Shown here in pieces: positions 11,914 through 56,753 of a stretch of DNA of 64,000 bases (position 1 is its first letter; each line of letters begins with the position of its first letter). Origin of the DNA: Saccharomycodes ludwigii (taxonomy: Eukaryota; Ascomycota; Saccharomycetes; Saccharomycodales; Saccharomycodaceae); assembly GCF_020623625.1 (NCBI RefSeq), contig NC_060200.1, forward strand, positions 2,438,001-2,502,000, read 5' to 3'. Below the pieces are notes generated by a model. It was not told the origin of the DNA, ran no database searches, and saw only the letters and a program-made list of their open reading frames with translations. The translations under genes were made by a program, and so were the position numbers.

Positions 11914-12024
11914 TCTCCCGGGGGTGAGTCGAACACCCGATCTCAAGATTACTCAGAGAACGGTTATGAAAACCAATTCACAATATTACAGTCTTGCGCC
12001 TTAAACCAACTTGGCTACCGAGAG
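11914..12024 (-). tRNA. tY(GUA): tRNA-Tyr (GTA) with a 36-nt intron
   Basis: The minus strand reads CTCTCGGTAGCC at the 5' end and CCGGGAG plus discriminator A at the 3' end. All seven acceptor pairs form, including G-T pairs. The anticodon stem-loop reads ACTGTAA, then an intron of about 36 nt, then ATCTTGAG, so the intron sits one base after the anticodon, the universal nuclear position. The D arm and the T arm (GTTCGACTC) match the S. cerevisiae tRNA-Tyr pattern. The mature length is 75 nt. A T-run just past the 3' end is the Pol III terminator. A Ty3-type element is inserted 11-16 bp upstream of the 5' end. Confidence 0.96.
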
Positions 12025-12039
12025 CTAGAACACACAATA

Positions 12040-12460
12040 TATCGTAAGCGTAACTCAGGATTAGTCGTAATAATTACGGGTTCGGATTATGGTAATTAAT
12101 TCCTTGTTCTATTTAGGTCTTTACATATTATAATAATAATATATAATAAAGATTATTTAAAACTATAACTTAAATACTTTTGATGAATAACTTGATAATA
12201 AATCATCTCTTTATATATGATTTATTTTCACATTTATATTTGACGTTCATATTAATCTTTTCCAACATTTCGTTGTTGTGTTATCTTAGTAGTGATTTCA
12301 TGATCTGCTTTGAATGAGCGTAGCACTTTTGAGGTTGACTTATTTATTACTTTACTTCTTGCGGTGGACATTCTTTATTACTTTACTTCTTGAGGTTGAC
12401 ATTCTTTATTACTTTATATGTTGGTTGTAATATGCGTTTACTTGATTTCATATTACGACA
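12040..12460 (-). repeat. 3' LTR of the Ty3-type element
   Basis: In element orientation it starts TGTCGTAAT and ends CTTACGATA. The half nearest the tRNA matches the other LTR closely. The middle carries about three copies of a roughly 31-bp unit containing CTTTATTACTTTACTTCTTG, which the other LTR lacks. The last bases of pol run into this LTR. Confidence 0.93.
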
Positions 12461-15400
12461 TCCTCCTCCTCCGAAACTGAGTGTCTCCAGAGTTGTTTAA
12501 AGTTTGACAATAAGGCTGTCTTCCTATAGTCAGGTAATTTGTTAAAAATCCTAAGTGGTATTTCTACAGATAGAGTTGGATCAACATCGCTGAACTTTGC
12601 ATACAGCTTAGTCTTATCCTCTGTGATTCCAATTACACTAACTATTTCGGTTAATCTAAATTCCATTTCTTTTTCAGTTCTTGGCGGATGTTTTGGGTAC
12701 CTGTCTGGGTCATGTTTGAATTCTTTCAACCATTCAATGTTAATTACTCTATGTGTCTTTTTAGTACTTGGTAAATCTATTTCATAGGCGTTATCATTAA
12801 TTTTCTTTACTACCTTGAAAGGTCCTAAATATATCGGTTGTATCTTCCAGTATTTGCCTTTGACGAAGTATGCGTCTCTGTGTACTAATACATGTTGTCC
12901 TGGTTCTAATATAATTTGTATTCTCTTATTGTTCTTGGCTGCTTCATTGTTTTCAGCGTTTGCAGCTAAAAAATCTTTTGTTCGCAATTCTATTGCTTTC
13001 AATTTCTTGGCTAATTCGACTGCGGAGTCATTTTGTGCTGAACTCTCCCCCTCCGTAAATATTTGTGGTTTATTAGGAATATAACCCAAATCAACTTCAA
13101 ACGGAGCAGCTCGAATACTAGATAAATAAGTCGAATTGTAACAAAATTCTAAAATGGGCAAAAAATTATCCCATTGTTGGTGATGTACGGAGCAATAGCT
13201 TTTTAACATACGACCTAAGACTTGAATAACTCTTTCAGTTTGTCCATCTGTTTGAGGATGGTTACTACTTGACATTTTTAATTGAATTCCTAATCGTTTT
13301 ACTAATTCTTTGTATGCAGTGCTCATCATTCTAATATCCTTGTCTGAGGTAATAAATCGGGGAAATCCGTGGTAAGCAAAAACGTGTTTAAATAGTAAAT
13401 TAATAAGTTCAATGGAACCTGTAGTGGACTTGCATGGTATAAAGTGGCATCGTTTCGAGAATCTGTCTACGACAATTAAAATAAAGTCATTCTGACGAAA
13501 TGTAAGTGGTAGTCCTGAAGCAAAGTCGATAGTAATATGTGACCATCGTCCTTTTGGAACATCTAAAGATTGTAGTAAACCTTGTGAGGCTCGTCGGTGT
13601 TGCTTCATAACTTGACAGTTGTAACAATGTGCTACGTAATCTTGTATATTCGAATATAAACTAGGCCAATAATAGTCTTTTGCAATTTTATGAAAAGTGA
13701 TATCGGCACCAAAGTGTCCTCCTAATATAGCATTGTCATGATAGTACTCTAACACTGAATTTCTTGCTTTTTGTGGTACACATAGTCTGTCTTTGTAATA
13801 TAAGAAATTGTCTTTGTCTATTGTATATGCTTCTTGAAATTGTCTTGATGAAGTCCATTTTTTCTGATATTTCTTGAATAAATGTAAATCCATTCCTTCT
13901 GTGTTCACATTATCTATATGTTTCATTCCGTGCAGAACTGCAGCACACCAGGGGTCATTCTCATAAAGTTCAAGCCATGATTTTGCATCAATGGTATCTA
14001 CTTCTAAGCTTTTACTGTCTCGTGATAGTGTGTCAGCAATATGGTTCATTGTACCTTTTAAGTATGTCAAAGTGAAGTCGTATTCACTTAGCATGTCTAA
14101 CCAGCGGGAAATTCTTCTTGACGGTTCTTTCTTATTTTGTAATGATAAAAGTGAAATATGGTCTGTTCTTAATTCAAAATGGTTTCCATGTAGTAAATAT
14201 CGGAAATGATTTAGTGCTTCAATTATTGCTAATAATTCTAATTCTCCAGGTGGGTAATTCTTTTGTGCACCTTGTAAGCTTTTACTGAAGTATCCAATAA
14301 CTCCAATTAGCTTGTTGTTTTCTAATTTTTCTAATACGGCTCCAAGTCCATCATACGAGGCATCGGTAGTTAGTCTCATGTAACATTTGGGTGTATACGG
14401 GACTAATATTGGTGGTGAGCCTAGTGCTTTCTTTAAAGTTTCAACGCTTTGTGTTTGTTCGTCTGACCATTCAGTCTTCTTTGCTGTAAATTCAACTAGT
14501 GGCTTAGCTATATGACTACATCGTGGCATAAACCTTCTGTAAAAATTAATCATTCCTAAGAATCTCTGAACACTCTTAATATCTTGGGTAACTATTAAGT
14601 TCTTAATAGCATCGGTTTTTCCTTGTAATGGTCTGATACCATCACTACTAATTTCGTGTCCTAAAAATACTACTTTTCTTTGTGCAAAATAACATTTTGA
14701 TCTTTTTGCAACTAAACCATGATCTTTTAGTCTTTGTAATACTGTTTCTAAGTGTTTCCAATGTTCTTCTGTATTATCACTGTGTATTAGAATATCATCT
14801 AAATAAATACAAACAAATTTTAAATCTCTGAATATGTCACTCATTAGTCTTGCAAATGTTGAAGGTGCATTTCGTAAACCAAAAGGCATAACAGTAAATT
14901 GATACTTTCCAAATGGGGTGACAAAACTAGTCAAGGGTTTGTGTTCCTTTTTCATTGGAATTTGGTAATATCCATTTAATAGATCTAAGGTTGTGAATAT
15001 TTTTGAAGATCCTAGTTTGGCAAATATAGTGTCTAATAATGGTAGGGGAAACAAGTCTGGTTCTGTATTTTTATTCAACATTCTGTAGTCAACACATAAT
15101 CTGTAATCTCCAGATTTCTTCTTTACCATGATTATGGGTGAAGCTATTGGGGCTTTGGATTCTTCTATGTATCCATCTGACAATAAGCTATCAACCATTT
15201 TCCTTGCTTCTTCTTCAAGCTTGGGTGTACTTCTGTAAGGTTGCATTTTTGGAAGTCTCTCGGGATCCTTTAGTATTATTTCATGGTGTACATTTACCAA
15301 TTTATGTGTTTCAGGTAATAATTTAGTACCTACAATATCTCTAAACTTTTTCCTAAGCCATTCTGGAATAAAGTTCCATGTTTTATTTTCCTTTGTTTCA

Positions 15401-16107
15401 ATCGTCACCTCTAATAACTCGTTCAACTGTTCTTTGTCCTCGGTTTCTATGTTCAACAGTTCAGGGTTTGTTTCAAGTATGGGGTTCCCGACAATAACCT
15501 TGTTGTTAATTGTGTCTAAAATATACGCATCTATTTTATATTCTTTGTCGTTAATTGTAAAACGTACTGTTGTAGCTTTGTTCGTACCTTCTTTGGTTCC
15601 TTTAATCGCTCCACTTATACTCTGAAAGGGCGCTTTGGAAACTTCTAATCCAATTATCTCTACTAGATTTCGGCTAATTACACTTGTTGGGGCTCCTGTA
15701 TCCATCAGGACCGTTGCTAGTGTTGCATCGTTCAATAACAATTCTACTTCCCTCCTCCTTCCAATTTTAGGAGTTTTCATAATTAAGGGGTATATACGAG
15801 AGTTTTTTCTTTCTTTGAGTCTTTCTCTCATTCTGTCCATAACTTCATCCCTATCGTCTATTTCTACGATTGGATTCGTGTCTTTTTCTATTCCTGCCGT
15901 ACTGAGTTGTTCATCTGTACCGGTTTCTATTCCTTCAGCTTTTGTGTCGTTTGTAGCTGGTAATTGCGAGTTAGCATCGTAAAACACTTCTTCCTCGTCT
16001 TCGTTATAATATTGTTCAAATTTTCCTAATTCTTCAGGATCAGCGTAGGCAAATTCTACGTGACCTTGGTATAGACTTTTTATACTATTTGGTTCTGGTC
16101 TTTGCAA
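12448..16107 (-). CDS. Pol polyprotein of the Ty3-type element (PR-RT-RH-IN)
   Basis: A 1219-residue open frame. It carries a retroviral aspartic protease motif (MDTGAPTSVIS), reverse transcriptase with the YLDD box (IYLDDILIHS), RNase H (TTDASYDGLGAVLE, and HFELRTDH), an integrase zinc-binding region (HFGADITFHKI to CYNC), a DDE core (ITIDFASGLP onwards) and a C-terminal chromodomain-like or SH3-like tail. Integrase after RNase H defines the Ty3/gypsy order. Ty3 relatives express pol with gag by recoding; how it is done here was not determined. Confidence 0.95.
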   Translation of the reverse strand: MQRPEPNSIKSLYQGHVEFAYADPEELGKFEQYYNEDEEEVFYDANSQLPATNDTKAEGIETGTDEQLSTAGIEKDTNPIVEIDDRDEVMDRMRERLKERKNSRIYPLIMKTPKIGRRREVELLLNDATLATVLMDTGAPTSVISRNLVEIIGLEVSKAPFQSISGAIKGTKEGTNKATTVRFTINDKEYKIDAYILDTINNKVIVGNPILETNPELLNIETEDKEQLNELLEVTIETKENKTWNFIPEWLRKKFRDIVGTKLLPETHKLVNVHHEIILKDPERLPKMQPYRSTPKLEEEARKMVDSLLSDGYIEESKAPIASPIIMVKKKSGDYRLCVDYRMLNKNTEPDLFPLPLLDTIFAKLGSSKIFTTLDLLNGYYQIPMKKEHKPLTSFVTPFGKYQFTVMPFGLRNAPSTFARLMSDIFRDLKFVCIYLDDILIHSDNTEEHWKHLETVLQRLKDHGLVAKRSKCYFAQRKVVFLGHEISSDGIRPLQGKTDAIKNLIVTQDIKSVQRFLGMINFYRRFMPRCSHIAKPLVEFTAKKTEWSDEQTQSVETLKKALGSPPILVPYTPKCYMRLTTDASYDGLGAVLEKLENNKLIGVIGYFSKSLQGAQKNYPPGELELLAIIEALNHFRYLLHGNHFELRTDHISLLSLQNKKEPSRRISRWLDMLSEYDFTLTYLKGTMNHIADTLSRDSKSLEVDTIDAKSWLELYENDPWCAAVLHGMKHIDNVNTEGMDLHLFKKYQKKWTSSRQFQEAYTIDKDNFLYYKDRLCVPQKARNSVLEYYHDNAILGGHFGADITFHKIAKDYYWPSLYSNIQDYVAHCYNCQVMKQHRRASQGLLQSLDVPKGRWSHITIDFASGLPLTFRQNDFILIVVDRFSKRCHFIPCKSTTGSIELINLLFKHVFAYHGFPRFITSDKDIRMMSTAYKELVKRLGIQLKMSSSNHPQTDGQTERVIQVLGRMLKSYCSVHHQQWDNFLPILEFCYNSTYLSSIRAAPFEVDLGYIPNKPQIFTEGESSAQNDSAVELAKKLKAIELRTKDFLAANAENNEAAKNNKRIQIILEPGQHVLVHRDAYFVKGKYWKIQPIYLGPFKVVKKINDNAYEIDLPSTKKTHRVINIEWLKEFKHDPDRYPKHPPRTEKEMEFRLTEIVSVIGITEDKTKLYAKFSDVDPTLSVEIPLRIFNKLPDYRKTALLSNFKQLWRHSVSEEEDVVI
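12461..12472 (-). other. Polypurine tract of the Ty3-type element
   Basis: On the minus strand GGAGGAGGAGGA lies directly before the TG that opens the 3' LTR, the position and composition of the plus-strand primer in LTR elements. Confidence 0.8.
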
Positions 16108-16251
16108 CGATTGGTTGTAATTATTATTATTATTTTTTTCTTTTTTTGTAGTAATTTTTTATTGTTTTTGTAGTTTTCTTGTTGTTTTTTCTCTTTTTTT
16201 GTAAATCTAGCGATGGTTTTTCTATTTTTCTGTGTGTTTAAACAGTTTAGT

Positions 16252-17097
16252 TCAATATCTCTGAGGCGTGGGAGAACTCGCGTTTCTCTTTTGACTCTTT
16301 GGACATTTAGAAGCGTAGTGTCCTGAATCACCACATTCATAACATAATCCTTTATTTCTACATAAGCTTTCGAGGCGATTTTTCCAATAATCGTTATTCG
16401 AGTTGGACTTGTTGAAATTATGACGGTTTCTGTTATTGTAATCCCAACGTTCTGAGTTGTTGTAATTACGACGTCCTGAACTACTATTACGGTTCATATA
16501 TTTGGATTGCATGGCATCGATTTCCATGGCATCCGGATCATTGCTTGTTGATGTTGGTGTATCATACCAATTTACATTATTCGTTTTAGATCCTAAGTTG
16601 TCAGCTCTCCAGGCCATCTCTTCGGCTTCTCTCAAGGTTTGCGGGTCACGAATTCTCAATTCTCTACAAATGTCCTTTTTTAACCCAGCGATGAAAGTTA
16701 CAATTAGGGCTTTTTCTGAGACAAAGTCGATAGGCAATAACAATCTAGTTTTCTCGAACTTGTCAGTGTATTCCATAACACTCTTGGTCTGTCTCATTTT
16801 ATTTAAATCAAGGTACATTTGGTAAGGGTCAATAGCGACAAAAAAATGTTCTTTCAACTTAGCAACAACAGTTTCGTAGGGTACGTCTGTTAAGTCTGCT
16901 CTTCGGTATGCGTTTCTAAACCACGAGGCAGCATCACCATCCAAGTTTTCAGCTAAAAAACAAATTTTCTCCTGATTTGAAGAAATACGCCTAGTTACAA
17001 AACGAATTTCAACAGCATCTAAGAATTGGAGTAATGTGTGAACATCACGGCTTCCTGCGAAAGGGTTTAACCTAACACCATCAGTATTGTTACTCAT
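16252..17097 (-). CDS. Gag protein of the Ty3-type element
   Basis: A 281-residue open frame with a Ty3/gypsy capsid-like region (residues 15-170, with AASWFRNAYRRA and LKEHFF). A basic Asn/Arg-rich linker follows, then one nucleocapsid zinc knuckle, CYECGDSGHYASKC, near residue 260. The start codon lies 36 bp inside the primer-binding site. Confidence 0.92.
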   Translation of the reverse strand: MSNNTDGVRLNPFAGSRDVHTLLQFLDAVEIRFVTRRISSNQEKICFLAENLDGDAASWFRNAYRRADLTDVPYETVVAKLKEHFFVAIDPYQMYLDLNKMRQTKSVMEYTDKFEKTRLLLPIDFVSEKALIVTFIAGLKKDICRELRIRDPQTLREAEEMAWRADNLGSKTNNVNWYDTPTSTSNDPDAMEIDAMQSKYMNRNSSSGRRNYNNSERWDYNNRNRHNFNKSNSNNDYWKNRLESLCRNKGLCYECGDSGHYASKCPKSQKRNASSPTPQRY

Positions 17098-17132
17098 CGT
17101 TAATCTTATTTCTTTTGATCGTTTTCTATTTT

Positions 17133-17145
17133 AGCGGCGCTACCA
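17133..17145 (-). other. Minus-strand primer-binding site (initiator tRNA-Met)
   Basis: The plus-strand bases AGCGGCGCTACCA equal the 3' end of yeast initiator tRNA-Met, so the element strand is complementary to it. The site is two bases from the 5' LTR, the same offset as in Ty3. Confidence 0.9.
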
Positions 17146-17147
17146 GA

Positions 17148-17588
17148 TATCGTAAGCGTAACTCAGGATTAGTCGTAATAATTACGGGTTCGGATTATGG
17201 TAATTAATTTCTTGTTTTATTTCGGTCTTTACATATAATAATAATATATAATAAAGATTTATTTAAAACTATAACTTAAATACTTTTGATGAATAACTTG
17301 ATAATAAATCATCTCTTTATATATGATTTATTTTCACATTTATATTTGACGTTCATATTAATCTTTTCCAACATTTCGTTGTTGTTCCTTAGGCGGCATC
17401 TTGGTTACGGTGTTTTCCTGTAAAAGTGATTTCCATTACGGAGACTTCCTATTAAGGTAATTTCCATTGCGGAGACTTCCTATTAAGGTAATTTCCATTA
17501 CGGAGACTTCCTATTAAGGTAATTTCCATTACGGAGATTTCCTGTATGTTGGTTGTAATATATGTTTACTTGGTTTCATATTACGACA
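17148..17588 (-). repeat. 5' LTR of the Ty3-type element
   Basis: The ends are the same as those of the 3' LTR. The U3 half contains a 30-bp unit, including TTTCCATTACGGAGACTTCC, repeated about four times between 17427 and 17550. This unit is absent from the 3' LTR and shared with the solo LTR at 56225-56667. Confidence 0.93.
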
Positions 17589-17593: not shown

Positions 17594-18691
17594 TCGCAAA
17601 ATAGAATTGTATTTATAATAATTAACGCAAAATGTAGCAACTTCGGAAAAACCACGGAACGTTTGAAAAGTATGGAGATGACCGTAAGAAGGAGATTCCC
17701 TTAACGGACGAGAACGAAATCTTTTGGAAAAAAATAATGCAGTTTACATATAGAAAAAAAGGAAGATGAAAATAACTCATAGATATAAAGAGATGATTAT
17801 GAATTTAGTTGGAAACATATAAATTATAGTTTTATTAGTTAAAATTACATAGACAAAAAAACAAAAACTATTACATCTCTCTTGATTTAACTACTAAAGT
17901 ATTAAAATCATTTTACTAATCTTACCTCACTGTATACCCCCTCTGCGACATAACACCATCTCCAAAAGGTGAACCTATATTTCTTATGTAGTTTATACGT
18001 AAGATAATGATATCATCAAACTTTGAAACTCACTTTTAACGTGGCAGTGTTCCAATATAAGATACTTCAAATAACCGTTTAATAACTAATTAGTATTGCT
18101 AATATTAACCTCAAAATTAAGGTCCAAGTATCAAGAAATAAGTTATATATAAATGTGTTATTTAGGATTCATTTATCAATCTATTCTAAAATATAAATGT
18201 TAATTTTTTATATAATTAATATTTAAAGGTATGTAGGAAAAATAGGCAACACAGTTATTTTTTATTAACTTACTAACATGTATCATTCTACGACATAACG
18301 TTGGTTTACATTAGATGTGCTTTAATTACCAAATAATGGGTTATAGTATATTGGTGTTACCTTATTAATAAAAAAAAAAAACTCACAACCAAAGAAAGGT
18401 ATTATACAAAATAAAATAAATAAAATAAATAACATATATATAATATATAAAAAGGATAATGCAATATATATGGGTAAAAATGGTGATTACTATTGTCATT
18501 CAACAGTGACAATTGTAATAGTAGGCTATAATTATATGCAGAAAACACTACCACCATTAAAAAAATTAACAAAAGTAAGACTAAACAAACATGGCAATAA
18601 ATAAAAGGAATAAATATAGGGAATAAATCATATACAATGATAATAAATAAAGTTAAAAATACAAATCAAAAGGAAAAGTATGAGAACTCGG
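17594..18691. other. Intergenic region between the Ty3-type element and COA2
   Basis: No gene was seen. About 17594-17977 is unique sequence, including a mixed-composition stretch at 17636-17730 of unknown meaning. The 322-bp inverted repeat follows, and the rest is AT-rich with an A-run near 18370. The region is a candidate rearrangement junction. Confidence 0.6.
17978..18299 (-). repeat. 322-bp dispersed repeat, copy A (possible LTR relic of a second family)
   Basis: By eye this is about 98% identical to the reverse complement of 55879-56200. In the orientation of the other copy it starts GTTATGTCGTAGAATG and ends CATAAGAAATA, after which the two copies diverge sharply. Just beyond the end, a second TGTTATGTCG occurs (17945-17954, minus strand). 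Length, AT content, a TG-type start in copy B and a position near Ty3 insertions suggest a solo LTR fragment, but no coding part was seen. Confidence 0.75.
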
Positions 18692-18874
18692 TCAGTTTTT
18701 TTTCCTTTGCAATTGATCGTCGTCATTATCTTTTTTTTCTATTATTGGTGTATCTGAATTTAAAGTATGTGCTGGACATGGAAAAGCAGAAGTTAAAGCC
18801 ACTGATGAGAATGCTACTAGAAATGTGGTCATGAACACTTTATTAGTGATATTGTTTCTTGTGGCTGCTTTCAT
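18692..18874 (-). CDS. COA2: Small mitochondrial protein, probable Coa2 (cytochrome oxidase assembly)
   Basis: This 60-residue ORF begins MKAATRNNITNKVFMTTFLV, continues with a hydrophobic segment to about residue 30 ending PCPAH, and has a charged hydrophilic tail. The short length, single hydrophobic segment and PCPAH motif suit small mitochondrial inner-membrane assembly factors. In S. cerevisiae COA2 (YPL189C-A) lies beside GUP2 and NAB3. Here the ORF is near SCY1 and GUP1 with the orientation predicted by synteny. The sequence match itself was made from memory and is weak, so this could be another small membrane protein. The Reb1-type site at 19456 lies about 580 bp upstream. Confidence 0.55.
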   Translation of the reverse strand: MKAATRNNITNKVFMTTFLVAFSSVALTSAFPCPAHTLNSDTPIIEKKDNDDDQLQRKKN

Positions 18875-19505
18875 TGTCTATTTTCTTGGGCTATTGTCAC
18901 TTTATATGATATTACTATTCTGCGATCCTTTAATTTTTGGCAGTACCTTTTTTTCTTTTCTTTTCTTTTCTTTTCTTTCCAATGGATTGGCTTAGATGTA
19001 ATTATATATTTATATACGAACTTATATATATTGTTGAAGTAGAATAAGATAGAAAAATATAATTATAAAAAAATAAAATGGAAATATAAATAAAAGTTAG
19101 AAATTGATATGCTTTTATTGAGTTTAATATAATTTGACTGGGAACTGAAAAATACAGGAAAGAAAAGAAATAAAAAAAAAAAAAAAAAAAAAAACCAAGA
19201 TGTATTGAATCTAAAAAATAATGGCATTTTTTCTTTTTTTCTGCTGATTTTTATCGCTTTTTTTTTTTAATGGGATACAAAGGGATGTAATTGTTATTAT
19301 GATTTATTTCCCTTTGAATAAAGCGTTTTTAAGCGCATGGAAAAAATAAAAATAAAAATAAAAATAAAAAGCAACCAATTAAATTTAAAAGAAATAACTA
19401 ACCCATTTTTTTTCTTTTATATTTTTCAATTCTATCCTATTAATCTATTTACTTTCCGGGTAATAACTAACTTATCCCTTTATCACGTTTTTCTTTTTCC
19501 TTTTT
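18875..19505. other. Intergenic region between COA2 and the SCY1 3' end
   Basis: Contains a TTTTC tandem repeat at about 18950-18978, an A-run at 19171-19193, AAAATA-type repeats at 19341-19370 and a Reb1-type site at 19456-19463. No gene was seen. Confidence 0.65.
19456..19463 (+). promoter_or_regulatory. Reb1-type site just past the SCY1 stop codon
   Basis: CCGGGTAA lies about 45 bp downstream of the SCY1 stop codon (SCY1 is on the minus strand). It could serve the downstream COA2 promoter or act as a Reb1 roadblock terminator for SCY1. Both are inferences from the motif. Confidence 0.4.
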
Positions 19506-22139: not shown

Positions 22140-22483
22140 ATTCTAAGTTATTTACTTTTTTTTTTTACTTTATCAGTCTATTGCTTTAATTTACTTGTTA
22201 TTTTTTTTCTTTCCAGTTGATAAAAACGTAAACGGCAAAAAATAAAATAAATAAAAAAAAAAAAAAAAAAAAAACGATGGAAAACACACTTCAAGAAATT
22301 TCTTGAATTTAATATGTGTGTTGCTAGCCGGGTTATCATCGAACATACAAGAAAATACACTCGTGTAAAATTCTTCGGTCTTTTTATCTTGCCGATACAT
22401 TTCTCTGAAACTAATCTAATTTTTAACACTCATGAATACAAAATAAAAGAATATCCACGACAAAATATAACAAAATCAATACA
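22140..22483. other. Divergent promoter region SCY1/SDR gene
   Basis: 344 bp with A/T runs (about 22253-22273). Nothing else was supported. Confidence 0.6.
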
Positions 22484-23506: not shown

Positions 23507-23822
23507 CGTAGCTAGTTAGATGAGTATAAAGACATTTTTAAATAATATATCTTGAAGGTTTAACTTTATATTATTTTATCTTAATTTTTTTTCTTTAAGT
23601 TTGACAATTTATGTTTTATAATGCTAATTCAGTTTCCGTTATTCCAATTTTTTTTTTTTTTTTTTTTTTTATTTTTTATCATTTTTTTTTTTTTTTTTAT
23701 TTTTCCCCTTCTTATTCACCTATTTTCGAAAATAATACTATATTAATGTCAATATTATAAAACAATGAACTGGATTAATAATACCAATCACATTGTCAGG
23801 GACTATATACATACATATACAT
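23507..23822. other. Intergenic region SDR to GUP1
   Basis: Dominated by T-runs (23650-23700). It includes an upstream ATG at 23765 whose frame overlaps the GUP1 start; see findings. Confidence 0.6.
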
Positions 23823-25592: not shown

Positions 25593-25623
25593 ATGTACAT
25601 AAATATAATATTTAAAGCAAAGC

Positions 25624-25625
<2 letters not shown>

Positions 25626-25670
<45 letters not shown>

Positions 25671-25687: not shown

Positions 25688-25706
25688 TTAGAAAAATGGT
25701 AGACAT

Positions 25707-26747: not shown

Positions 26748-26778
<31 letters not shown>

Positions 26779-27053: not shown

Positions 27054-27084
<31 letters not shown>

Positions 27085-45472: not shown

Positions 45473-45779
45473 TACATAAATTCGGCTTTTATTTTTTTTT
45501 TTTGTATAATAATTTGTCCATATTGTATTAATAAAATAATATAAATCATCTAGTTATGTCTTTTTTTTTTCTTTTTTTTTTTTTGATTATAATTGTTTTA
45601 ATTAAAATACTATTATTTAATTTATTATCTAATTTAAATGATAATTTATTTACAGGATGAATTCTGGCAACCTTACTTTTTAGCATTCATTAGTCACAAT
45701 GTGTATTAGAACATATGACAATATACATATATAAATGTGCATTTATATTGGTTTAATTATATGATAGTATTTAAAAAGC
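45473..45779. other. Convergent 3' intergenic region RTT10/RTC6
   Basis: AT-rich with T-runs near 45491-45503 and 45561-45584. Nothing else was seen. Confidence 0.6.
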
Positions 45780-46627
<848 letters not shown>

Positions 46628-47760
46628 ATGCTTAATGAGAATACTGCCAAAGATAATAATACTACCCAACCATCACAACAAAAGAAGAAAAGTATATTAA
46701 AGCGTCAATCCCTAACAACGGAAGAATCTATTCCAAATATTGCAACTACCGTTACTACAGGCCTACCTAATGGTGCTAAGCGATTTCTACTACCTTCAAA
46801 GTTTAACCTATCAAAAAATGATGTCCTTCTTTCGAGGGAAAACAATACTACTTCTAGGATAAACACTACAAAGTTGCAAGCCAAATTGAAAAACATGAAT
46901 AATAAAATTGCTGCTGAGGGAAAGAAAAGGAGACGTGTTTCGTTTGCACCAGATGTTACTTTGCATACGATAGATTTTATTTCTTTATCTAGACAGCCAA
47001 CTAACATAGATACCAGTGTAACAACAAATGGTGTTAGTAAAAGTATTAATCTTGATAATATTAACAAAAATTACAATACTAATAATGAAACTAGTAAAAT
47101 AAGAGCTATAGAGGACAAAGGACAAAACTACGATCAAAACAGTATGTCTATAGGCAATAATCATAACTATATTAATAATTCGGATGAAGAGACTAATACA
47201 ACAATGGATTTTACTAATCCCATTGGCCAAATATTTGAATTGCCTAACAAAATACCTGAAATCAAACATGTTACTAATGCTATCAAAAATGGTGATGAAA
47301 GTAGTACTACTGCTAAGGATGAACAAGAACCACAACAAGAAGTAGACCAAACTAGTAATGTTACGTTATCAATGGAGATTACCAAGTTGTTTACCAATGA
47401 AAATAGGAATATTTTGGATGATAACTCAAAAGACTATGAAAAAGAGCCAAATAGAGTACCAAGTACCTCGTTTATTGAAAATGTTAATGGTAATGGCAAC
47501 AATACAAGTAATCAAAGTCTTACCACAATGGAACTTACCAATTTAGACAATCTTGATGATTTGGCGCACAAAGATGAGGAAAACAGAATACTGAATTCAC
47601 AACGATCAAACGTGAAAAATATTCATGGACAGGAGGCTGTAGACATGGGAGAGGAAACTATGGATTTTACAAAAGCATTTACTACTATTCATAATACTGA
47701 TAGCTACGCTAATGACAATAGTATTCCTATCATTAATAAGATTAATACTGGCATTAGTAG

Positions 47761-47802
<42 letters not shown>

Positions 47803-49900
47803 TAGTAATGGTGATAATGATAATAATAATGACGATACTAATAGTGAATCAGAGATTTTTGCTGATAATAAACCTTTACTGTTAAACAATAAGAATTTTT
47901 TAGTTTTGGAAAAGGATCCTAGTTCAAGCACCTTTTTATCCCAGCCATTATTGCCAGAACAATTGAGTTCATTTAAGCTATCACAAATGGTTACTTCTAC
48001 ACAAAATCAGTCACAAAAAGCTGTGATGGAAGAACCACAAGCAGCTGTTTCAGAAAACAATAGCCATGAAAAAAGTGTTGCTGTCAAAGATTCCAAAGAA
48101 ATGGATGATAATGAACTGGATAACAACGACTTAAGTTTTGATGAAAAATTATCTCCTATACCCGTTTCTCATCCATTTTCCCCAACAAAAGAAATTAAAA
48201 GGATATCGTTAGAGACTCCAAAAGACTCTTTGGAATTTATTCATTCTAAAATAAACCATAATGAACGCATAGATATTAATAAACAGGAGGGTGACACTGA
48301 CAATGGGACACAAGAAAATAAGACTACCAAAAATAAGCTGGATTTTTTTTTGAAAGAAATAGGTATTGAATTACCACAACTTGCCAAAGACAAATCAACT
48401 AACACGAACGCCAGTTTTTCCACAAGTAATATCACTAGATTATACAAATACTATAAAGACATGAGTGAGGTTTCCACATCGGATTTGTATATCAATTTGC
48501 ATTGTAATACACCAATATTAGAAATTTATCAATTTATTTATCAAGAATTAGTTAAAAAATTAGACAATTTTAATATTGACTACGATAGTCTACTAAAGAA
48601 ACATGAATCTTCTAATAGTAATAGTACTAGTAGTATTCATCACAGAAATTTACTATTTTTACTTGAAAAATGGTTTTCGCCAGAATTTCAAGATAATAAC
48701 GATAAAAAACCCTTATTTATGGAGCAATTTAATGAATTAAAAACCTATTCAAAGTTGGAGGCAGAATATATGTGGTTGAGTTGGAGATCTCAACAATTAG
48801 ATGGAATAATTACTGTTTTAGAAGATAATTACAATCTAGTTAAGGAGGAGTACCAAGATGTCTTGACTAGTTTTGATGAAACATCAAATATTTATAAAAA
48901 TGCACTGGTTATAAAAGATGAATTAATCAAAACCATCGAATTATATAAATCTAGCGATGGTTTGACTACTATTGCCGGTAATTCCATAGTGTCCCCTCTT
49001 AGAAATAAAGCTACCAAAAATTTGACTTTATCCGATAGAATTAAATGGGAAAAGTGGAAATTAAAATTAAAAAATAGCTATGACATTGATATTGGTGATA
49101 TTGATGATTCACTAAAAAGGAAAGACGAAATTATGGAAAAGATTATCCAATTGAAGCAGATAAAATTTAAAAAGACAAATGTTAAAGAGCAAAAATGCGA
49201 CCAAATTGATGATGATTCTTTACCAAGTATTGCTCATAAAAAAGAGATAGAAGATTTAAATAGTGAAAATTTTCTTAAAATTAAAAAAATTATATGTGAA
49301 ACTTCAAAATACTCAAAAAAAAAAGTTATTTTTGATACTGACAGTGAAAATGAAGGGAAATGTACTTTTAAATTTAAGGAATTAAATTTAATTATCAAAG
49401 TTGACCATTCCCTACCTGATGTTGATCAAAATAACATAATTTTTGAAATGGATGAACCATTCGATAATTTTTTGAGTGTATGGTGGTATAATACATATTT
49501 CAAGAAAATTAAAAATAAGATATATGAGGGCACAGGGAATGATGCAATGTTCACCAAATTGCATGATATTGTCGACAAAATTAATATATTTTATCAAATT
49601 TTGATAAATATAACCAATTTGACCTACATATATTCCACCAAATTGACCCAACAAAACTCAATACAATCGACAGTAATTAAGTTTGATGTTTTAACAAATT
49701 TATATAAATTAACCCTTAGTTTTACCGGCCAACAGATTATCGATTTAATCCTAAACAATGCAAGTAACAATAATAAACTTGTTACCCCTGTAAAGGTTGA
49801 GAAACAGTTTTATAGTAATGACGTTACAGTGCATTCAACTGATCTTTTTACTGGTGGTGTTCTTTCAATATTGCCATGGTTGAAACGTATTGTTATTTAA
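46628..49900 (+). CDS. SPC105: Spc105 (KNL1) kinetochore scaffold
   Basis: The 1090-residue protein has both PP1-docking motifs near the N-terminus: SILK at 22-25 and RVSF at 103-106 in a basic context. MELT-type repeats used by Mps1 and Bub3 occur at about 193 (MDFTNPIG), 249 (MEITKLFT), 301 (MELTNLDN) and 345 (MDFTKAFT). An Asn tract (AAT repeat, about 47768-47800) follows. A coiled coil lies at about 690-880 and tandem RWD-like domains fill the C-terminal 200 residues. It scaffolds the spindle checkpoint at kinetochores with Kre28. S. cerevisiae Spc105 has 917 residues; the excess is in Asn-rich linkers. NUP145 follows on the same strand, as in S. cerevisiae. Confidence 0.95.
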
Positions 49901-50403
49901 TATTTTTATATTGTGCTGTATTTAAAATACTTTTAAATGGCGATGTTTCCAATTTTGAACTATAACTGTGTTTTTTTTTTGACAACATACACATATACAC
50001 AGAGATTGTTAAATATTCTTAAGTACTTTTCAATAAAAATTGTAAATGAAACCTATCAGTGATTTATCACTTTATTTTTATGGAAAGTTTAATTCTCCTT
50101 TTCACTTAATCTAAAATTTGTGTTTGATTTTAATATCTGTAAATTGACCGAATTTCTAACGGACTTTAAAAGTATTCGGTTACAGTTTTATTTCTTTGGT
50201 TATATTTTTTATTTTTTATTTTTTATTTTTTATTTTTTATTTTTTTTTAGAAAAAGCAAAAAAATTTTATTTTGTTTTTTTCTTTTTTTCCAGACTCAAA
50301 ATAAATAAAATAAACAAATACAAAAAAAAAAAAAAAAAAACAGGATCTATATTATCACAACATATTAAGTGATTAAAAAAAAAAACAAAAAAACAAATGA
50401 GTA
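49901..50403. other. Intergenic region SPC105 to NUP145
   Basis: Contains a TTTTTTATTTT repeat at about 50204-50247 and an A-run at 50322-50340. A four-codon upstream ORF at 50397-50411 overlaps the NUP145 start. No gene was seen. Confidence 0.6.
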
Positions 50404-53400
50404 ATGTTTAATACAACTAGCAACAATAACAATAATAACATAAATACCACCGCAATTGGCGGTAATTTGTTTGGTAATTCTGGTTTGAACACATCGACTC
50501 CACAATCCACACCAGTTCCAAGAACTAATGTGTTTGGACAGCAGCAGCAACAACCACCCACAACTGTTAAGCCTACTAATACGCTATTCGGTAATAATGG
50601 TATTGGGGCAGCTTCCACACCTAGTCCTGTCACTAATAACTTATTTGGTACCAATAAACCATCCACTGGTCTGCTTAACAATCCTACAACTAATACAGGT
50701 ACTAATACCACAAATGGTACTTCGTTGTTTGGGAATTCTTCAAAAACAATGACTGCAAATATTGCTCCGGTAGATAATAAGCCTCAAATAAAAACTGGGA
50801 CTACAGGTTTATTTGGATCTGCAACTATGAACCCTTCCACTAATAAAAATGGTGGGCTTTTTAATAATGGAAACACGCAGACCAATTCTTCGTTTACCAA
50901 TAAACCCACAACAACCAATTCTAATTCGTTATTTGGTAATAATTCATCAGCCACCTCAGCGCCCATTTCTTTATTCGGTAACACAAATAGTAATAACACT
51001 GCTACAGGTAATGGGAATTTTGGGGCCTTAAACAACAGTGGGTCTCAAATGTCAAATACCATCCCGAATGCTTCTTCTAATCCATACGGTTTGAAGATAG
51101 AAGAAGTGTTGATTACAAAGATGCCTGCATCAATTACAAGTTCATTGAATAACAATACTTCAGACGTAATTAATAATCAAAAAACGGTTTTCAATATTAG
51201 ATCGAAAAATCCCACAAGCTTAAAAAGAAATTCATTTCAAAGTTCCACTTTTAATGAAAGTAGCTTAATTAGCAAATTGGGCTCTAGACTACTTAATGGT
51301 AAATCAACAGATTCTATAAGAGGCTTGTTTTCTGCGTCATCGTCATTAACAAGCGGCACTGCTAATTTTTTATCGAACTTTGGTAGCTTTGATAAAAATA
51401 CTCTAGATAATCAGCAAAATAATAATGGTATCACCAAGAATAATAAAAAGCTAGCACAAAATCACATTTTTTTTACTAATGGTGTTATAGCTAAAAAAGA
51501 TCTATCTGGTATTCGTAAATTAAAAATTGACCCTAAAAGAATTGCTTTGAAAAGACAAAGATTGGCTAATGGACTAAGTTCGACTAGTAAATTTGGATCT
51601 ATTGAAGATGATAATGTCAACAACGGCGAATCGAGTATTCATAATCCTAAAGATAATCGTAAACCAGACTCAAATTATAGAGTTTTCGGTAGTCATGAAT
51701 TGAAGGAAGATTTGAATGTTGAATCAAGTGGTGAATCGAGCAACGAAGAGAGCAGTAGTTCTAGCAAATCCTCTGCCAAACCTGCTGATTCCTCTGATAT
51801 TGATTATTGGTGTTCGCCTTCAATTGAGGCATTATCTGAAATGTCTGAAAAGGAATTGAGTCTTGTTCCTGACTTTGTTATTGGTAGAAAGGGCTATGGT
51901 TGTATTGCATTCAGTTATGATGTCGATTTATCAAACTTTAAAGAAGATTTTAAGGGTAAGCTTTTTGGAAATATTGTTGTTTTCAATGATAACAGAACTG
52001 TTGAAGTGTATCCAGACGAAAAAACAAAACCGACAGTTGGTAATGGCATTAATGTGCCCGCAATAATAACTTTGGAAAAAATTTACCCAATTGATGTCAA
52101 AACGAAAAAACCTATAAAAAACGGTTCCAATATTCCTGGAATTCAAAATTTTGTGAAAAAATTGAAAAATCAGCGTGGTATGGAATTTATTTCTTATAAT
52201 CCATTTGGTGGTGTGTGGATATTTAAAGTAAAACATTTTAGTATTTACGGTTTGGTTGATGATAATTCTGTTGCCGTTGATCTTGACGGTGTGGAAGTTT
52301 CGGATGAAATTAAAAATAGAAATATTGCATACCCTAAAATGCGAGCTGATGAATATTCAGATGTTGATTTGCCGGGCGCATTTGAAAGAACAACTAGTAA
52401 TAAGCAGCAATCTAATACCAGTAGTGCTTTGAACATCAATTCGACGGATATAGTCTTGTCTACCCCCAAAATTCCAGGGAAGCTTTTAGATTTAGTCCAA
52501 AATGAGGACATTGTTGTTGAAAGAGATTATGAGCCCTCTGATGTTGATGAATCTGATTTTGATGACTTAGAAGTACAACCCGACTTAGACACTGCTGATG
52601 ACTGGGTTGAACAATTGGCACTTGCTGGTACTTCGAAAAAATCTATTTTTGCTGATCAAAGGTTTTTTTTTGATAAAAATGCAGATTTGGATAACTTATT
52701 GTTTGCTTCGTTTAATAGAAACGTGGAAGAATATCAGAAAATTATTAAGGAGCGTAGATTGGTGCGTTGGAATTTCGCTTCGTTTAACCAAGACTCTACT
52801 CTTTTGATCAAATCTGTTAATGGTATTGGTGCCAAAATTGTTACTTGCCCTGCTATTAAAGGTGGTAAAGACCCCAAAACGTTGGTAAATATTTTCACTC
52901 AAATTATTCCGAGAGTTAATTTTGAAACAAGAAATGACACACATGGGTTTCCTATAGTTTCCAAGGATATTGGCTTTAATTTTCAGAATTTATACGATGC
53001 CAATAGTGAAGATTCCAAGTGGAATTTATTACACATATTATTTGACAAAATGAATAAGCCGCAAAATTATGAAAATGAAAATGTTTGTCAATCTTTGATG
53101 AAGAAACAGAAATTGAACAGGTTAATTGAATGGGTTAATATGGAAATTAGTGAGGAGATAAGTTTAAAGCTGTCCACTTATAGCAGCAAAAGTGACAATG
53201 CCGATCAATTATATAAAATCATATTACATTTAGTTAACAATGACATTGTTGAAGCAACTTCGTTGGCTATTTATTCCAATAATCCGCACTTGTCGTGTGT
53301 TATACCAATGTTAACTTCTAATAACAATGCGTTTAAGAAAATGGCCAAGTTGCAATTATCTAAATGGAAGTCTTTAGGTTGTTCTGTTGATCCACAGATT

Positions 53401-54456
53401 ACTTGTATTTTTAAAATTTTGAGTGGTGACTTTGTCTATTTGAGTGACTTGAGTTGGCTTGCCAATTTTGCTTTGCATTTGAATTATTGTGATATTTATA
53501 GGAGTTCTATCAGTGATGTTGTTGCTGATTTCTTTTGCCATTTTAAAATTCATGATGTCAATAATCAGGTGGATAAAAGCGTTGTGGCTAGTATTTTGAA
53601 ATTTTATACCGCTAGTACTGGTGAAGCCAGTAAATACAATGAGTTGTTAAAAGCTTTAAAATTTAGCGAATCGCCTTTGGATTGTGTTTTGACCTGGTTT
53701 TTGATTCAAATTTTGAGTGCCAAACATAAGAAACTTCAAATTGATTATAATATAAAGGATATTGCATCATTAAACTTTATAGAACAATTAAAATGTAATG
53801 GGCTATGGGAGGAAAGTATGTATGTCGCAACATTTATTGAGAACAATTTTGTTGCCACTAAACAATTCAAAAATCTACTTACGCTAGAAATTAAGCGTTT
53901 TCAAGATAATATCCCATTTTTGAAAAAGTTGAAAATACCTGAAAGTGAACTTTATTACCATTTGAGTTTAAGTTTTAAAAATAGTTTTGATTCTTACAAT
54001 GAGAGTTTATGTTTAATTAAAGCTGGCAAGTATAAAGAGGGGATTGCTGTAATTACTAAGATATTGGGTCCCAAGTGTATTTTATCTTCAGATGATAAAG
54101 AACATTCGAAAGTTTTGGATTTGATTGAAACATTTCCCAAAAATATTCGTGATAGTGATTGGGATAGATCAATTGGATTATACAAAAGATATTTACGTTT
54201 ATTGTTATTAAAGGACAGTGGAAAAGATAATTTAGAGACCATTATGGACCTATTACCTTTATATTATGAAAACACTAAATGCATTCAATATTGTTATGTT
54301 TCATGCATGGAGATGTCGTTTAAAGTTTCTTTAGAATATATTGAAAGGTTCATTCAAGGGGAGAGCGCCGATAGAAGACAAGACTTGATGAACAAGATTT
54401 TAAATTTGCCGTTGGGAGAACCAGAAGCAAACCATTTAAAACGTCTATTAAAGTGA
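50404..54456 (+). CDS. NUP145: Nup145, self-cleaving nucleoporin precursor (Nup145N + Nup145C)
   Basis: The 1350-residue protein has an N-terminal FG region with GLFG/NLFG/SLFG repeats (residues 1-215), a linker, and the autoproteolytic domain at about 465-613 (YWCSPSIEAL ... VIGRKGYGCI ... VYPDE). It ends at HFS with His611, Phe612 and Ser613, and cleavage is expected between Phe612 and Ser613. The remaining 738 residues are the alpha-helical Nup145C of the Y-complex, with VEQLALAGTSKKSIFA at its start. Both this and S. cerevisiae Nup145 (1317) begin MFN, supporting the start. Nup145N (Nup98-like) lines the channel and Nup145C builds the scaffold. NBP35 follows convergently. Confidence 0.97.
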   Translation: MFNTTSNNNNNNINTTAIGGNLFGNSGLNTSTPQSTPVPRTNVFGQQQQQPPTTVKPTNTLFGNNGIGAASTPSPVTNNLFGTNKPSTGLLNNPTTNTGTNTTNGTSLFGNSSKTMTANIAPVDNKPQIKTGTTGLFGSATMNPSTNKNGGLFNNGNTQTNSSFTNKPTTTNSNSLFGNNSSATSAPISLFGNTNSNNTATGNGNFGALNNSGSQMSNTIPNASSNPYGLKIEEVLITKMPASITSSLNNNTSDVINNQKTVFNIRSKNPTSLKRNSFQSSTFNESSLISKLGSRLLNGKSTDSIRGLFSASSSLTSGTANFLSNFGSFDKNTLDNQQNNNGITKNNKKLAQNHIFFTNGVIAKKDLSGIRKLKIDPKRIALKRQRLANGLSSTSKFGSIEDDNVNNGESSIHNPKDNRKPDSNYRVFGSHELKEDLNVESSGESSNEESSSSSKSSAKPADSSDIDYWCSPSIEALSEMSEKELSLVPDFVIGRKGYGCIAFSYDVDLSNFKEDFKGKLFGNIVVFNDNRTVEVYPDEKTKPTVGNGINVPAIITLEKIYPIDVKTKKPIKNGSNIPGIQNFVKKLKNQRGMEFISYNPFGGVWIFKVKHFSIYGLVDDNSVAVDLDGVEVSDEIKNRNIAYPKMRADEYSDVDLPGAFERTTSNKQQSNTSSALNINSTDIVLSTPKIPGKLLDLVQNEDIVVERDYEPSDVDESDFDDLEVQPDLDTADDWVEQLALAGTSKKSIFADQRFFFDKNADLDNLLFASFNRNVEEYQKIIKERRLVRWNFASFNQDSTLLIKSVNGIGAKIVTCPAIKGGKDPKTLVNIFTQIIPRVNFETRNDTHGFPIVSKDIGFNFQNLYDANSEDSKWNLLHILFDKMNKPQNYENENVCQSLMKKQKLNRLIEWVNMEISEEISLKLSTYSSKSDNADQLYKIILHLVNNDIVEATSLAIYSNNPHLSCVIPMLTSNNNAFKKMAKLQLSKWKSLGCSVDPQITCIFKILSGDFVYLSDLSWLANFALHLNYCDIYRSSISDVVADFFCHFKIHDVNNQVDKSVVASILKFYTASTGEASKYNELLKALKFSESPLDCVLTWFLIQILSAKHKKLQIDYNIKDIASLNFIEQLKCNGLWEESMYVATFIENNFVATKQFKNLLTLEIKRFQDNIPFLKKLKIPESELYYHLSLSFKNSFDSYNESLCLIKAGKYKEGIAVITKILGPKCILSSDDKEHSKVLDLIETFPKNIRDSDWDRSIGLYKRYLRLLLLKDSGKDNLETIMDLLPLYYENTKCIQYCYVSCMEMSFKVSLEYIERFIQGESADRRQDLMNKILNLPLGEPEANHLKRLLK

Positions 54457-54529
54457 AACATATATAATGTATAATATATATATGAAATGAACATTTTTTT
54501 TTTTTTAAAAAAAAAAAAGAAAAAGCCAT

Positions 54530-55564
54530 TTAAAGTTCTATCTTTTCCCTTAATTTAAAAAGTATATCTAATATGGCATCGGTTGCCGGGCTATCTGGGT
54601 TAACATCTATAAAATTCATACCACTATCACAGCATTTTCTTATTCTAGGGTCTAAAGGAACCGACCCCATGAACGGCAAATTCAACTCTTTACACAACTG
54701 CATAGCACCCCCAGTAGTTGGCTTAAAAATCCTAGATTCATTTTGGCAATTAGGACAAACAAACCCACTCATGTTTTCCACAACACCTAGTATTTTAATT
54801 CCAGTTTTGAAACAAAAATCAATCTCTTTTCTTACATCTAATAAGGCTACTTCTTGTGGAGTTGTAACAATTAACGCCCCATCGATTCCGGATTCCTTTA
54901 AATAGTTATTAATAGTAATGTGTTCATCAGATGTGCCTGGAGGAGTGTCAATGATTAAATAGTCTAACCCATCACCATCATTACTCCAATCTACATCTTT
55001 TAAAAACTTTTTAATTAAAGCATTCTTCTTGGGGCCTCTCCATATAATAGCAGAATCATCTTCAGGGAGCATATATTGAATAGACATTGTTGCTAGATTT
55101 TCAGTGACATATACTGGAGTTAGTCCTGTATTAGATTCATGAACCAATTCGTTATGGCAACCAAACATTCTAGGCATGGAGGGGCCGCAGATATCTAGAT
55201 CCATACAACCTATATTCAATAATTCGCTAGTGTCTACGTCTTCATTATCAACAGTGGCAGAACATGAACTTAAACCCCACGTGAGCATGGCTGTAAAAGT
55301 ACTTTTTCCTACACCCCCTTTACCACTTAATATCAATATTTTGTGTTTAATACAAGACAAATTGTCTGTAATTAATGGGATATCTGGATCAGGACCTTTG
55401 GGTAAGGATTCACAAATTGTTTTGTTGGCACAGCCAGTACACGAATCACTCTTGCCTGCGTTCTCTGATTCTGGACCTGGACAGTGCTCGGGCTCAGGTT
55501 TGATTAGAGTATAATTCTGCAAATCAATTTTATTATCAGATGAGCCTTTAGTTTTACCAGTCAT
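54530..55564 (-). CDS. NBP35: Nbp35, cytosolic Fe-S cluster scaffold P-loop NTPase
   Basis: The 344-residue protein has the N-terminal ferredoxin-like cysteines C28, C42, C45 and C51 (C-x13-C-x2-C-x5-C). The deviant Walker A motif GKGGVGKST is at 81-89. It also has LIIDTPPGTSDEH and the C-terminal CPNC cluster-binding motif in GFVCPNCQNES. With Cfd1 it assembles 4Fe-4S clusters for cytosolic and nuclear proteins. Length matches S. cerevisiae Nbp35 (328). It is convergent with NUP145, with a 73-bp gap holding T/A runs. The promoter carries a CGGAT inverted repeat. Confidence 0.97.
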   Translation of the reverse strand: MTGKTKGSSDNKIDLQNYTLIKPEPEHCPGPESENAGKSDSCTGCANKTICESLPKGPDPDIPLITDNLSCIKHKILILSGKGGVGKSTFTAMLTWGLSSCSATVDNEDVDTSELLNIGCMDLDICGPSMPRMFGCHNELVHESNTGLTPVYVTENLATMSIQYMLPEDDSAIIWRGPKKNALIKKFLKDVDWSNDGDGLDYLIIDTPPGTSDEHITINNYLKESGIDGALIVTTPQEVALLDVRKEIDFCFKTGIKILGVVENMSGFVCPNCQNESRIFKPTTGGAMQLCKELNLPFMGSVPLDPRIRKCCDSGMNFIDVNPDSPATDAILDILFKLREKIEL

Positions 55565-55878
55565 ATTATATTAAATAATTTATTTATATGTAATGTATTC
55601 TTTGGTGTTTTTTTTTTTTTTTTTTTTTCTTACCTTATTTTTTTTAGTAATATGGTCATTGCTAAATTATTTTGTATTACTAATAATACAAGTTTTTTTT
55701 TTCTTTTTTTTTTTTTTTTTTTTGAAAAATCGCATTTAGATAATTGATCGGATACGTTTTCATCCGATTCCCGAAAAAGTAAAGAAATTTTCATTTCGCA
55801 TGTTTCCTTTCTTAGATATCGATATATATATTTATATATATATACATGTTTTTTTTTTGTTCTTAAGCATGAATGTTT
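55565..55878. other. NBP35 promoter region
   Basis: Two long T-runs (55609-55629, 55694-55723), then an inverted repeat ATCGGAT (55747-55753) with ATCCGAT (55762-55768) spaced by eight bases, then CCCGAAAAAG. The 322-bp repeat begins at the far end. Confidence 0.55.
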
Positions 55879-56200
55879 GTTATGTCGTAGAATGATACAT
55901 GTTAGTAAGTTAATAAAAGATAACTGTGTTGCCTATTTTTCCTACATACCTTTAAATATTAATTATATAAAAAATTAACATTTATATTTTAGAATGGATT
56001 GATAAATGAATCCTAAATAACACATTTATATATAACTTATTTCTTGATACTTGGACCTTAATTTTGAAGTTAATATTAGCAATACTAATTAGTTATTAAA
56101 CGGTTATTTGAAGTATCTTATATTGGAACACTGCCACGTTAAAAGTGAGTTTCAAAGTTTGATGACACCATTATCTTATGTATAAAGTACATAAGAAATA
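55879..56200 (+). repeat. 322-bp dispersed repeat, copy B (possible LTR relic of a second family)
   Basis: Inverted relative to copy A at 17978-18299 and about 98% identical by eye. It begins (T)GTTATGTCGTAGAATG and ends CATAAGAAATA about 20 bp before the target duplication of the Ty3-family solo LTR. No coding capacity was seen. Confidence 0.75.
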
Positions 56201-56224
56201 ATACTTTACTATTTTGTGAAAGCA

Positions 56225-56667
56225 TGTCGTAATATGAAACCAAGTAAACATATATTACAACCAACATACAGGAAATCTCCGTAATGGAAATTACCTTAAT
56301 AGGAAGTCTCCGTAATGGAAATTACCTTAATAGGAAGTCTCCGCAATGGAAATTACCTTAATAGGAAGTCTCCGTAATGGAAATCACTTTTACAGGAAAA
56401 CACCGTAACCAAGATGCCGCCTAAGGAACAACAACGAAATGTTGGAAAAGATTAATATGAACATCAAATATAAATGTGAAAATAAATCATATATAAAGAG
56501 ATGATTTATTATCAAGTTATTCATCAAAAGTATTTAAGTTATAGTTTTAAATAATCTTTATTATATATTATTATTATAATATGTAAAGACCTAAATAGAA
56601 CAAGAAATTAATTACCATAATCCGAACCCGTAATTATTACGACTAATCCTGAGTTACGCTTACGATA
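56225..56667 (+). mobile_element. Solo LTR of the Ty3-type element
   Basis: A 443-bp LTR, TGTCGTAAT to CTTACGATA, opposite in orientation to the full element at 12040-17588, with its own 5-bp duplication AAGCA (56220-56224 and 56668-56672). The U3 half has the 30-bp tandem repeats of the 5' LTR; the U5 half has the variants of the 3' LTR. It lies 8-12 bp upstream of tRNA-Asn. Confidence 0.95.
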
Positions 56668-56679
56668 AAGCAAGTTCTA

Positions 56680-56753
56680 GACTCCATGGCCAAGCTGGTT
56701 AAGGCGTGCGACTGTTAATCGCAAGATCGAGAGTTCAATCCTCTCTGGGGTCG
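56680..56753 (+). tRNA. tN(GUU): tRNA-Asn (GTT)
   Basis: A 74-nt gene without intron: GACTCCA at the 5' end pairs with TGGGGTC at the 3' end, with discriminator G. The anticodon loop reads CTGTTAA. The D arm (GCCAAGCTGGTTAAGGC) and the T loop GTTCAATC are standard. A T-run terminator follows at about 56763-56772. A Ty3-family solo LTR lies just upstream. Confidence 0.97.

Follow-up and report, generated by a model that had tools for sequence, protein, structure and literature searches.

The 64,000-nucleotide stretch of DNA from the wine yeast Saccharomycodes ludwigii analysed here (C1:2438001-2502000; hereafter the window) raises the question of how a block of 37.6 kb, lying between two mirrored arrays of tRNA genes and long terminal repeats (LTRs), came to be turned as compared to related yeasts, and which of the repeats carried the event. 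S. ludwigii is a pre-duplication yeast; the genome searched comprises 12.5 Mb in 8 contigs, seven of them large, in agreement with the published account of 7 chromosomes and 12.5 Mb (PMC8567612). The inversion of the block from COA2 to NBP35 (18300..55878) is well supported as a real event. A 322-bp repeat found at both junctions, designated LTR-C, is an old LTR and probably the agent of the inversion, a role that is moderately supported, and the Ty3-like and tRNA copies beside it appear to be bystanders or markers of a hotspot.

Gene order around the inverted block

The left part of the window carries CTI6 (+), VPS45 (−), MFalpha (+), UIP4 (−) and MRN1 (−), followed by array 1. Between the arrays lie COA2 (−), SCY1 (−), the short-chain dehydrogenase gene SDR (+), GUP (+), LCL3 (−), MAD1 (−), MMS2 (+), POS5 (+) and snR10 (−), and then a lipase gene (−), TCO89 (+), PAN2 (−), RTT10/TRM734 (+), RTC6 (−), SPC105 (+), NUP145 (+) and NBP35 (−). 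To the right of array 2 are NAB3 (+), a frame of 660 amino acids (+) and a MINDY deubiquitinase gene (+). Gene calls in the inverted block are Pfam, PDB or Rfam matches, and the order and strands given by the first-pass annotation agree with these domain and RNA-family matches. Gene names (e.g. SCY1, GUP, LCL3, RTC6) are assigned from the domain match together with the S. cerevisiae neighbourhood, and that of UIP4 (6552-7682) from the neighbourhood. The new junctions are J1, at which MRN1 (8403..11414, minus strand, identified by domain and locus tags, and lying near NBP35 in other yeasts) is the outer and COA2 (18692..18874, minus strand) the inner neighbour, and J2, at which NBP35 (54530..55564, minus strand) is the inner and NAB3 (57076..59568, plus strand) the outer neighbour.

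That NBP35 and MRN1 lie close together in related yeasts is evident from a survey of locus tags, which covered the best 120 of 5,663 matches for NBP35 and the best 120 of 1,707 matches for MRN1, and in which 12 species had a numbered tag for both genes. In nine of the 12 the two genes are two tag steps apart, a spacing that by numbering convention corresponds to one gene between them. This spacing was recorded for all seven pre-duplication Saccharomycetaceae among the matches listed (two Lachancea, two Eremothecium, Zygosaccharomyces rouxii, Zygotorulaspora mrakii and Torulaspora globosa), as well as for the post-duplication Tetrapisispora phaffii and Vanderwaltozyma polyspora. A gene-order breakpoint is placed at both ends of the block, the NBP35/MRN1 half by locus tags and the COA2/NAB3 half by the S. 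cerevisiae order.

When reversal distances were calculated for 9,504 interleavings of the two S. cerevisiae tracks, without hurdle correction and leaving the lipase, SDR, RTC6, snR10 and the unnamed frame out of the counts, neither an MRN1|COA2 nor an NBP35|NAB3 adjacency occurred in any of the 9,504. Undoing COA2..NBP35 shortens the distance in every one of these interleavings, whereas among 276 reversals compared on 1,500 sampled ancestors the runner-up has this effect in 75%. The proposal of an inversion between the arrays is thus borne out by both the tags and the distances. The two inversions suggested earlier are too few on the marker set used, for which the best single ancestor requires four, as CTI6, VPS45 and TCO89 are also displaced or flipped: COA2..NBP35 itself, one resembling the first of the two suggested inversions but reaching TCO89, and two that fix VPS45 and CTI6..TCO89. 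The COA2..NBP35 inversion is present in all six optimal scenarios. No sign that the new adjacencies are ancestral was seen for NBP35/MRN1 in the tags, and for COA2/NAB3 the ancestral order is taken from S. cerevisiae names only.

The other displacements involve junction J3 between VPS45 and MFalpha (4265..5730), which is part of another rearrangement, and region J4 (32554..38145; snR10..lipase and TCO89..PAN2), which is part of others. A comparison of J3 with three intergenic pieces of J4 (genes not included), with low-complexity masking on, revealed only short A-rich matches as shared repeats, of which the strongest covers 38 bp with 82% identity in direct orientation (E 0.002). As a separate observation, the tags of the nine other yeasts allow for a single gene separating NBP35 and MRN1, and none such was recognised in the window. 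The gene in this position elsewhere is presumably LIF1; a genome search for XRCC4 gave one weak match on contig C5, which lay below the cut-off and was not accepted.

The two arrays and the 322-bp repeat

Array 1 begins at its outer end with an intron-containing tRNA-Tyr(GTA) gene (approximately 11914..12024, minus strand), which ARAGORN missed in bacterial mode and labelled Asn in intron mode, and which was assigned to Tyr(GTA) from its spliced exons. It is followed by a full-length Ty3-like element (12040..17588, minus strand), with gag at 16252-17097 and pol at 12448-15840 (Pfam) and LTRs at 12040-12460 and 17148-17588 on the same strand; by LTR-B, a member of another Ty3-related family (17598..17955, start approximate, plus strand, opposite to the Ty3-like element); by 22 bp; and by the first copy of the 322-bp repeat (17978..18299, plus strand) at J1 with COA2. 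Array 2 displays the second copy of the repeat (55879..56200, minus strand; the LTR may reach ~56224) at J2 with NBP35, then ~25 bp, a solo Ty3-like LTR (56225..56667, plus strand) and, at the outer end, a tRNA-Asn(GTT) gene (56680..56753, plus strand). LTR-B is missing from array 2. The mirrored order of tRNA gene, LTR and 322-bp repeat at both ends, described in the first-pass annotation, therefore stands with corrections: a Ty3 LTR is indeed present in each array, its length is 421-443 bp instead of 240 bp, and array 1 contains a complete element and LTR-B. Relative to the tRNA genes the repeats are nested, with LTR-C outermost, LTR-B next and Ty3 innermost, as is expected if every newcomer inserts beside the tRNA start.

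The two LTR-C copies are inverted and differ by 7 mismatches in 322 positions, that is 2.2% (95% confidence interval 0.9-4.4%), which gives an identity of 97.8%. At high identity LTR-C occurs in two places only, both exactly at the junctions, as evident from two genome searches in which 40 of 44 and 10 of 10 candidates were scored, the first of them also retrieving LTR-B relatives down to 69%. No further high-identity copy was found in the 12.5-Mb genome, the next match being 79% over 63 bp on contig C6. Its outer end, GACATAAC[A/G], coincides with the point where related LTRs end, and one distant relative, on C6 (64% over 159 bp), has the same terminal end. The LTR-C terminus is adjoined by two different flanks, one on the COA2 side and the other on the NBP35 side, as two insertions of an LTR would produce. 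At each junction the segment common to the two copies stops, on its outer side, no more than one base from the LTR terminus, and the inner end in array 1 looks arbitrary.

The array 1 element carries Ty3-type gag and pol domains and a 5-bp target-site duplication, and is inserted just upstream of a tRNA gene, as fits a Ty3-like retrotransposon. Its duplication, TATTG in the direction of the element, is intact on both sides, and that of the solo LTR in array 2, AAGCA, is perfect on both sides and differs from it. A target-site duplication was present in five of eight other Ty3 copies tested; two of the three without one are inner ends of full-length elements, for which none is expected, and the third, at locus L023, is a genuine mismatch. 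When two inserted elements cross over, their flanks are swapped and the target-site duplications cease to match. The 5′ LTR of the array 1 element shares 99.3% identity with the solo LTR across 440 aligned bases. Seven copies elsewhere outscore the array 1 copy in comparison with the solo LTR, and four tie with it; the idea that the two mirrored Ty3 LTRs are specially related was accordingly rejected. Within the array 1 element the 5′ and 3′ LTRs share only 82.6% identity over 408 aligned bases, despite the intact duplication; these unlike LTRs could stem from gene conversion, or from recombination in the course of reverse transcription. Elsewhere in the genome, at locus L007 (C4:345085-346417), three Ty3 LTRs stand in tandem at 5-bp spacing, each preceded by AGTTT, and the third is followed by a sequence resembling a primer site.

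The distance of the Ty3 copies from the tRNA 5′ end is 16 bp in array 1 and 13 bp in array 2. Among the loci fetched, some of them chosen for carrying the LTR, seven outside the window have a Ty3 LTR at 12-15 bp upstream of the tRNA, which points in the tRNA's direction at five. A related LTR was found at 13 of 36 tRNA loci fetched from 63 listed (914 candidates), a list from which both window tRNAs are missing. Pairs of tRNA gene and LTR are thus ordinary in themselves, and two outward-facing tRNA genes may well show the mirrored tRNA-Ty3 layout; it is the 322-bp repeat, with one copy at each junction, that stands out from this.

Agent of the inversion and competing explanations

On balance, it is probable that recombination between the LTR-C copies inverted the block, with the Ty3 copies as bystanders that probably came later. 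An old, low-copy, Ty3-like solo LTR, LTR-C, would have lain in opposite orientation beside two tRNA genes ~37.6 kb apart, and homologous recombination between its copies, with the crossover passing through LTR-C, would have inverted COA2..NBP35 on the Saccharomycodes lineage. Recombination of two pre-existing copies is the simplest account because two flanks meet at the LTR-C terminus and the inversion lies exactly between the copies. The Ty3 copies are likely later than the inversion, as suggested by the ~99% likeness among Ty3 family members as compared to 97.8% between the LTR-C copies. Their intact duplications do not date them, since a crossover in LTR-C leaves those duplications intact whatever the time of arrival. 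The first-pass annotation had suggested an inversion mediated by the repeats, or else breakage at hotspots; the former is likely to be correct for the 322-bp old LTR and not for the Ty3 LTRs or the tRNA genes, as the duplications are intact and the tRNAs complete.

Several observations weigh against this reading. The 5-bp duplications of LTR-C match at best 4/5, in their own and in the exchanged configuration alike, and none is perfect. The array 1 copy apparently lacks ~25 bp of its start and is followed by 22 bp of unassigned sequence, and many genomic LTRs match parts of LTR-C at 61-69%, so that its low copy number holds at high identity only. On the side of gene order, NBP35 and MRN1 lie on different chromosomes in the post-duplication yeasts T. 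blattae (0A and 0B) and S. uvarum (7 and 16), for which duplication and loss allow an explanation. In Wickerhamomyces pijperi, outside the family, their tags (005625 and 004859) are far apart, on contigs of 51 and 9.6 kb from which adjacency cannot be read. The ancestral COA2-NAB3 adjacency is taken from the S. cerevisiae order only. Finally, the two LTR-C copies could also come from duplication in the course of break repair.

This last origin is a possible one, in which a single LTR-C would have been duplicated in inverted orientation at both junctions by fill-in of the single-stranded ends of staggered breaks. It would give two high-identity inverted copies at both junctions, and it accounts for the missing LTR-C target-site duplications and for the arbitrary inner end in array 1. 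Such inversions are documented, and are predominant in some Drosophila groups (PMC4965816). What speaks against staggered breaks is the position of the outer boundary at the LTR terminus at both junctions, which is unlikely for a random break. Moreover, inversion by staggered breaks is not known as a common mechanism in yeast, which also counts against it.

It is unlikely that the tRNA loci broke for other reasons and that LTR-C, LTR-B and Ty3 gathered there independently, before or after the break. Such a coincidence would fit the frequency of LTRs beside the fetched tRNA loci and the approximately 3-fold over-representation of tRNA genes at yeast breakpoints reported in PMC2675101. However, a family with two close copies, inverted and at just these loci, would on general reasoning be an improbable outcome, and recent independent insertions should carry target-site duplications, of which LTR-C shows none that is clean.

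An ancestral origin of the window order, with the change on the side of the Saccharomycetaceae and no inversion on the Saccharomycodes lineage, is very unlikely. A single order from the Saccharomycodaceae was examined, and W. pijperi, the sole yeast outside the family with both tags listed, has distant numbers for the two genes, facts which favour such an origin. Against these stand the unreadable adjacency in W. pijperi, the NBP35-x-MRN1 arrangement common to all seven pre-duplication Saccharomycetaceae and two post-duplication yeasts among the matches listed, and the identity of the junction repeats, which is far too high for such an age, barring gene conversion.

A crossover within the mirrored Ty3 LTRs, or within the tRNA genes, is scarcely credible and was rejected: in spite of the near-identity of the array 1 5′ LTR to the solo LTR and the opposite orientation of the tRNA genes, the differing duplications on both Ty3 copies are intact, closer or equally close copies occur elsewhere, and the two tRNAs are each complete and unlike in kind (Tyr and Asn). 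On these grounds the exchange does not appear to have passed through the Ty3 copies or the tRNA genes.

Age, known parallels and neighbouring genes

Strains of S. ludwigii differ from the reference by ~18,000-308,000 single-nucleotide polymorphisms, or 0.1-2.5% of 12.5 Mb, as reported in PMC8567612. Since the 2.2% divergence of LTR-C lies within this spread, the inversion may post-date the earliest divergence among strains, barring gene conversion, and the event would be recent enough to fall within the strain diversity of the species. It is possible but doubtful that the inversion is of recent date and still segregates, or that the block turns over again and again by way of the LTR-C copies. 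The same source describes two parental strains as highly collinear, which has no bearing on other strains. The UIP4 gene is 98% identical to SCODWIG_00439 of UTAD17, and MRN1 (residues 530-1003 scored) 100% identical to SCODWIG_00440, both on one contig of 25,880 bp; no SCODWIG tag for NBP35 was present among the matches listed (best 120 of 5,663). The literature searched contained no paper joining Saccharomycodes, inversion and synteny, and the word "inversion" is absent from the main texts of PMC8567612 and PMC7903802. Meiotic crossing over is extremely suppressed in S. ludwigii, and heterozygous inversions should consequently cost little in meiosis. The frequency of the inversion among strains would be informative, as the usual meiotic cost should be small here.

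The S. ludwigii inversion is a known kind of event, unusually legible. Yeast inversions flanked by tRNA genes (Kellis et al. 2003, cited in PMC7990762; Gordon et al. 2009, PMC2675101) likewise have oppositely oriented tRNAs and LTRs at both ends and a changed gene order between; in S. ludwigii, however, the tRNAs are complete and of unlike kinds, and the junctions are marked by a further LTR, present in two copies. The Galileo inversions of Drosophila, attributed to ectopic recombination (PMC2775673), likewise have a single element at either end in opposite orientations, whereas the LTR-C copies are old solo LTRs without any other close copy and with duplications at 4/5 in own and exchanged configurations. 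The flip/flop polymorphism of Saccharomyces chromosome XIV (PMC9731477) also concerns a block of tens of kb between inverted repeats (24 kb as compared to 37.6 kb), but its repeats are of 4 kb, gene-bearing and homogenised, with both orientations known, as compared to 322 bp and one orientation seen in S. ludwigii. The staggered-break inversions of Drosophila (PMC4965816) are alike in that a sequence with no other close copy is duplicated, in inverted orientation, at the two junctions; they differ in that one end of the duplicated segment in S. ludwigii is an LTR terminus. Yeast breakpoints have been blamed on tRNA genes and Ty elements largely by association, and the present event has kept enough anatomy to tell the likely bystanders, Ty3 and tRNA, apart from an old LTR with two close copies as the probable agent.

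The flanks were read for 20 kb on each side of the window and 19 frames were scanned, five of which gave no Pfam match. The left flank contains, nearest to the window, a KN homeobox gene (TOS8/CUP9), an RRM gene (CBC2), a phosphatase gene (PPQ1) and an extra gene of beta-lactamase fold. Farther left an RCC1 gene (SRM1) lies amid a Bystin gene (ENP1) and two unscanned HIS7- and ARO4-like frames, which belong to a chromosome II track of S. cerevisiae. The right flank comprises NUFIP1 (RSA1), MPC1, a Rad9-like gene (DDC1), KXD1 and a TLDc gene (OXR1), and then a transposase-like gene with a neighbour, a DEAD helicase gene (DBP3) and a permease gene (HNM1). Apart from the extra genes and this group with SRM1, the named genes follow the order of the interleaved tracks of S. 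cerevisiae chromosomes VII and XVI.

Extra genes as compared to these tracks are the short-chain dehydrogenase (22484-23506) and the lipase (32994-34337) of the inverted block, and the beta-lactamase-fold gene (L050:7812-9074), which lies between PPQ1 and CTI6. The 660-amino-acid frame between NAB3 and the MINDY gene (window 60879-62861) gives no Pfam match. The alpha-factor precursor (window 5731-6189) contains a tryptophan-rich peptide three times, each ending in GEPMY. In the right flank the transposase-like frame (L052:3825-4913, DDE_Tnp_4) is flanked by the OXR1-like and DBP3-like genes, and a frame on the opposite strand beside it (L052:5196-6014) has no Pfam match; the two presumably resemble a Harbinger-type pair.

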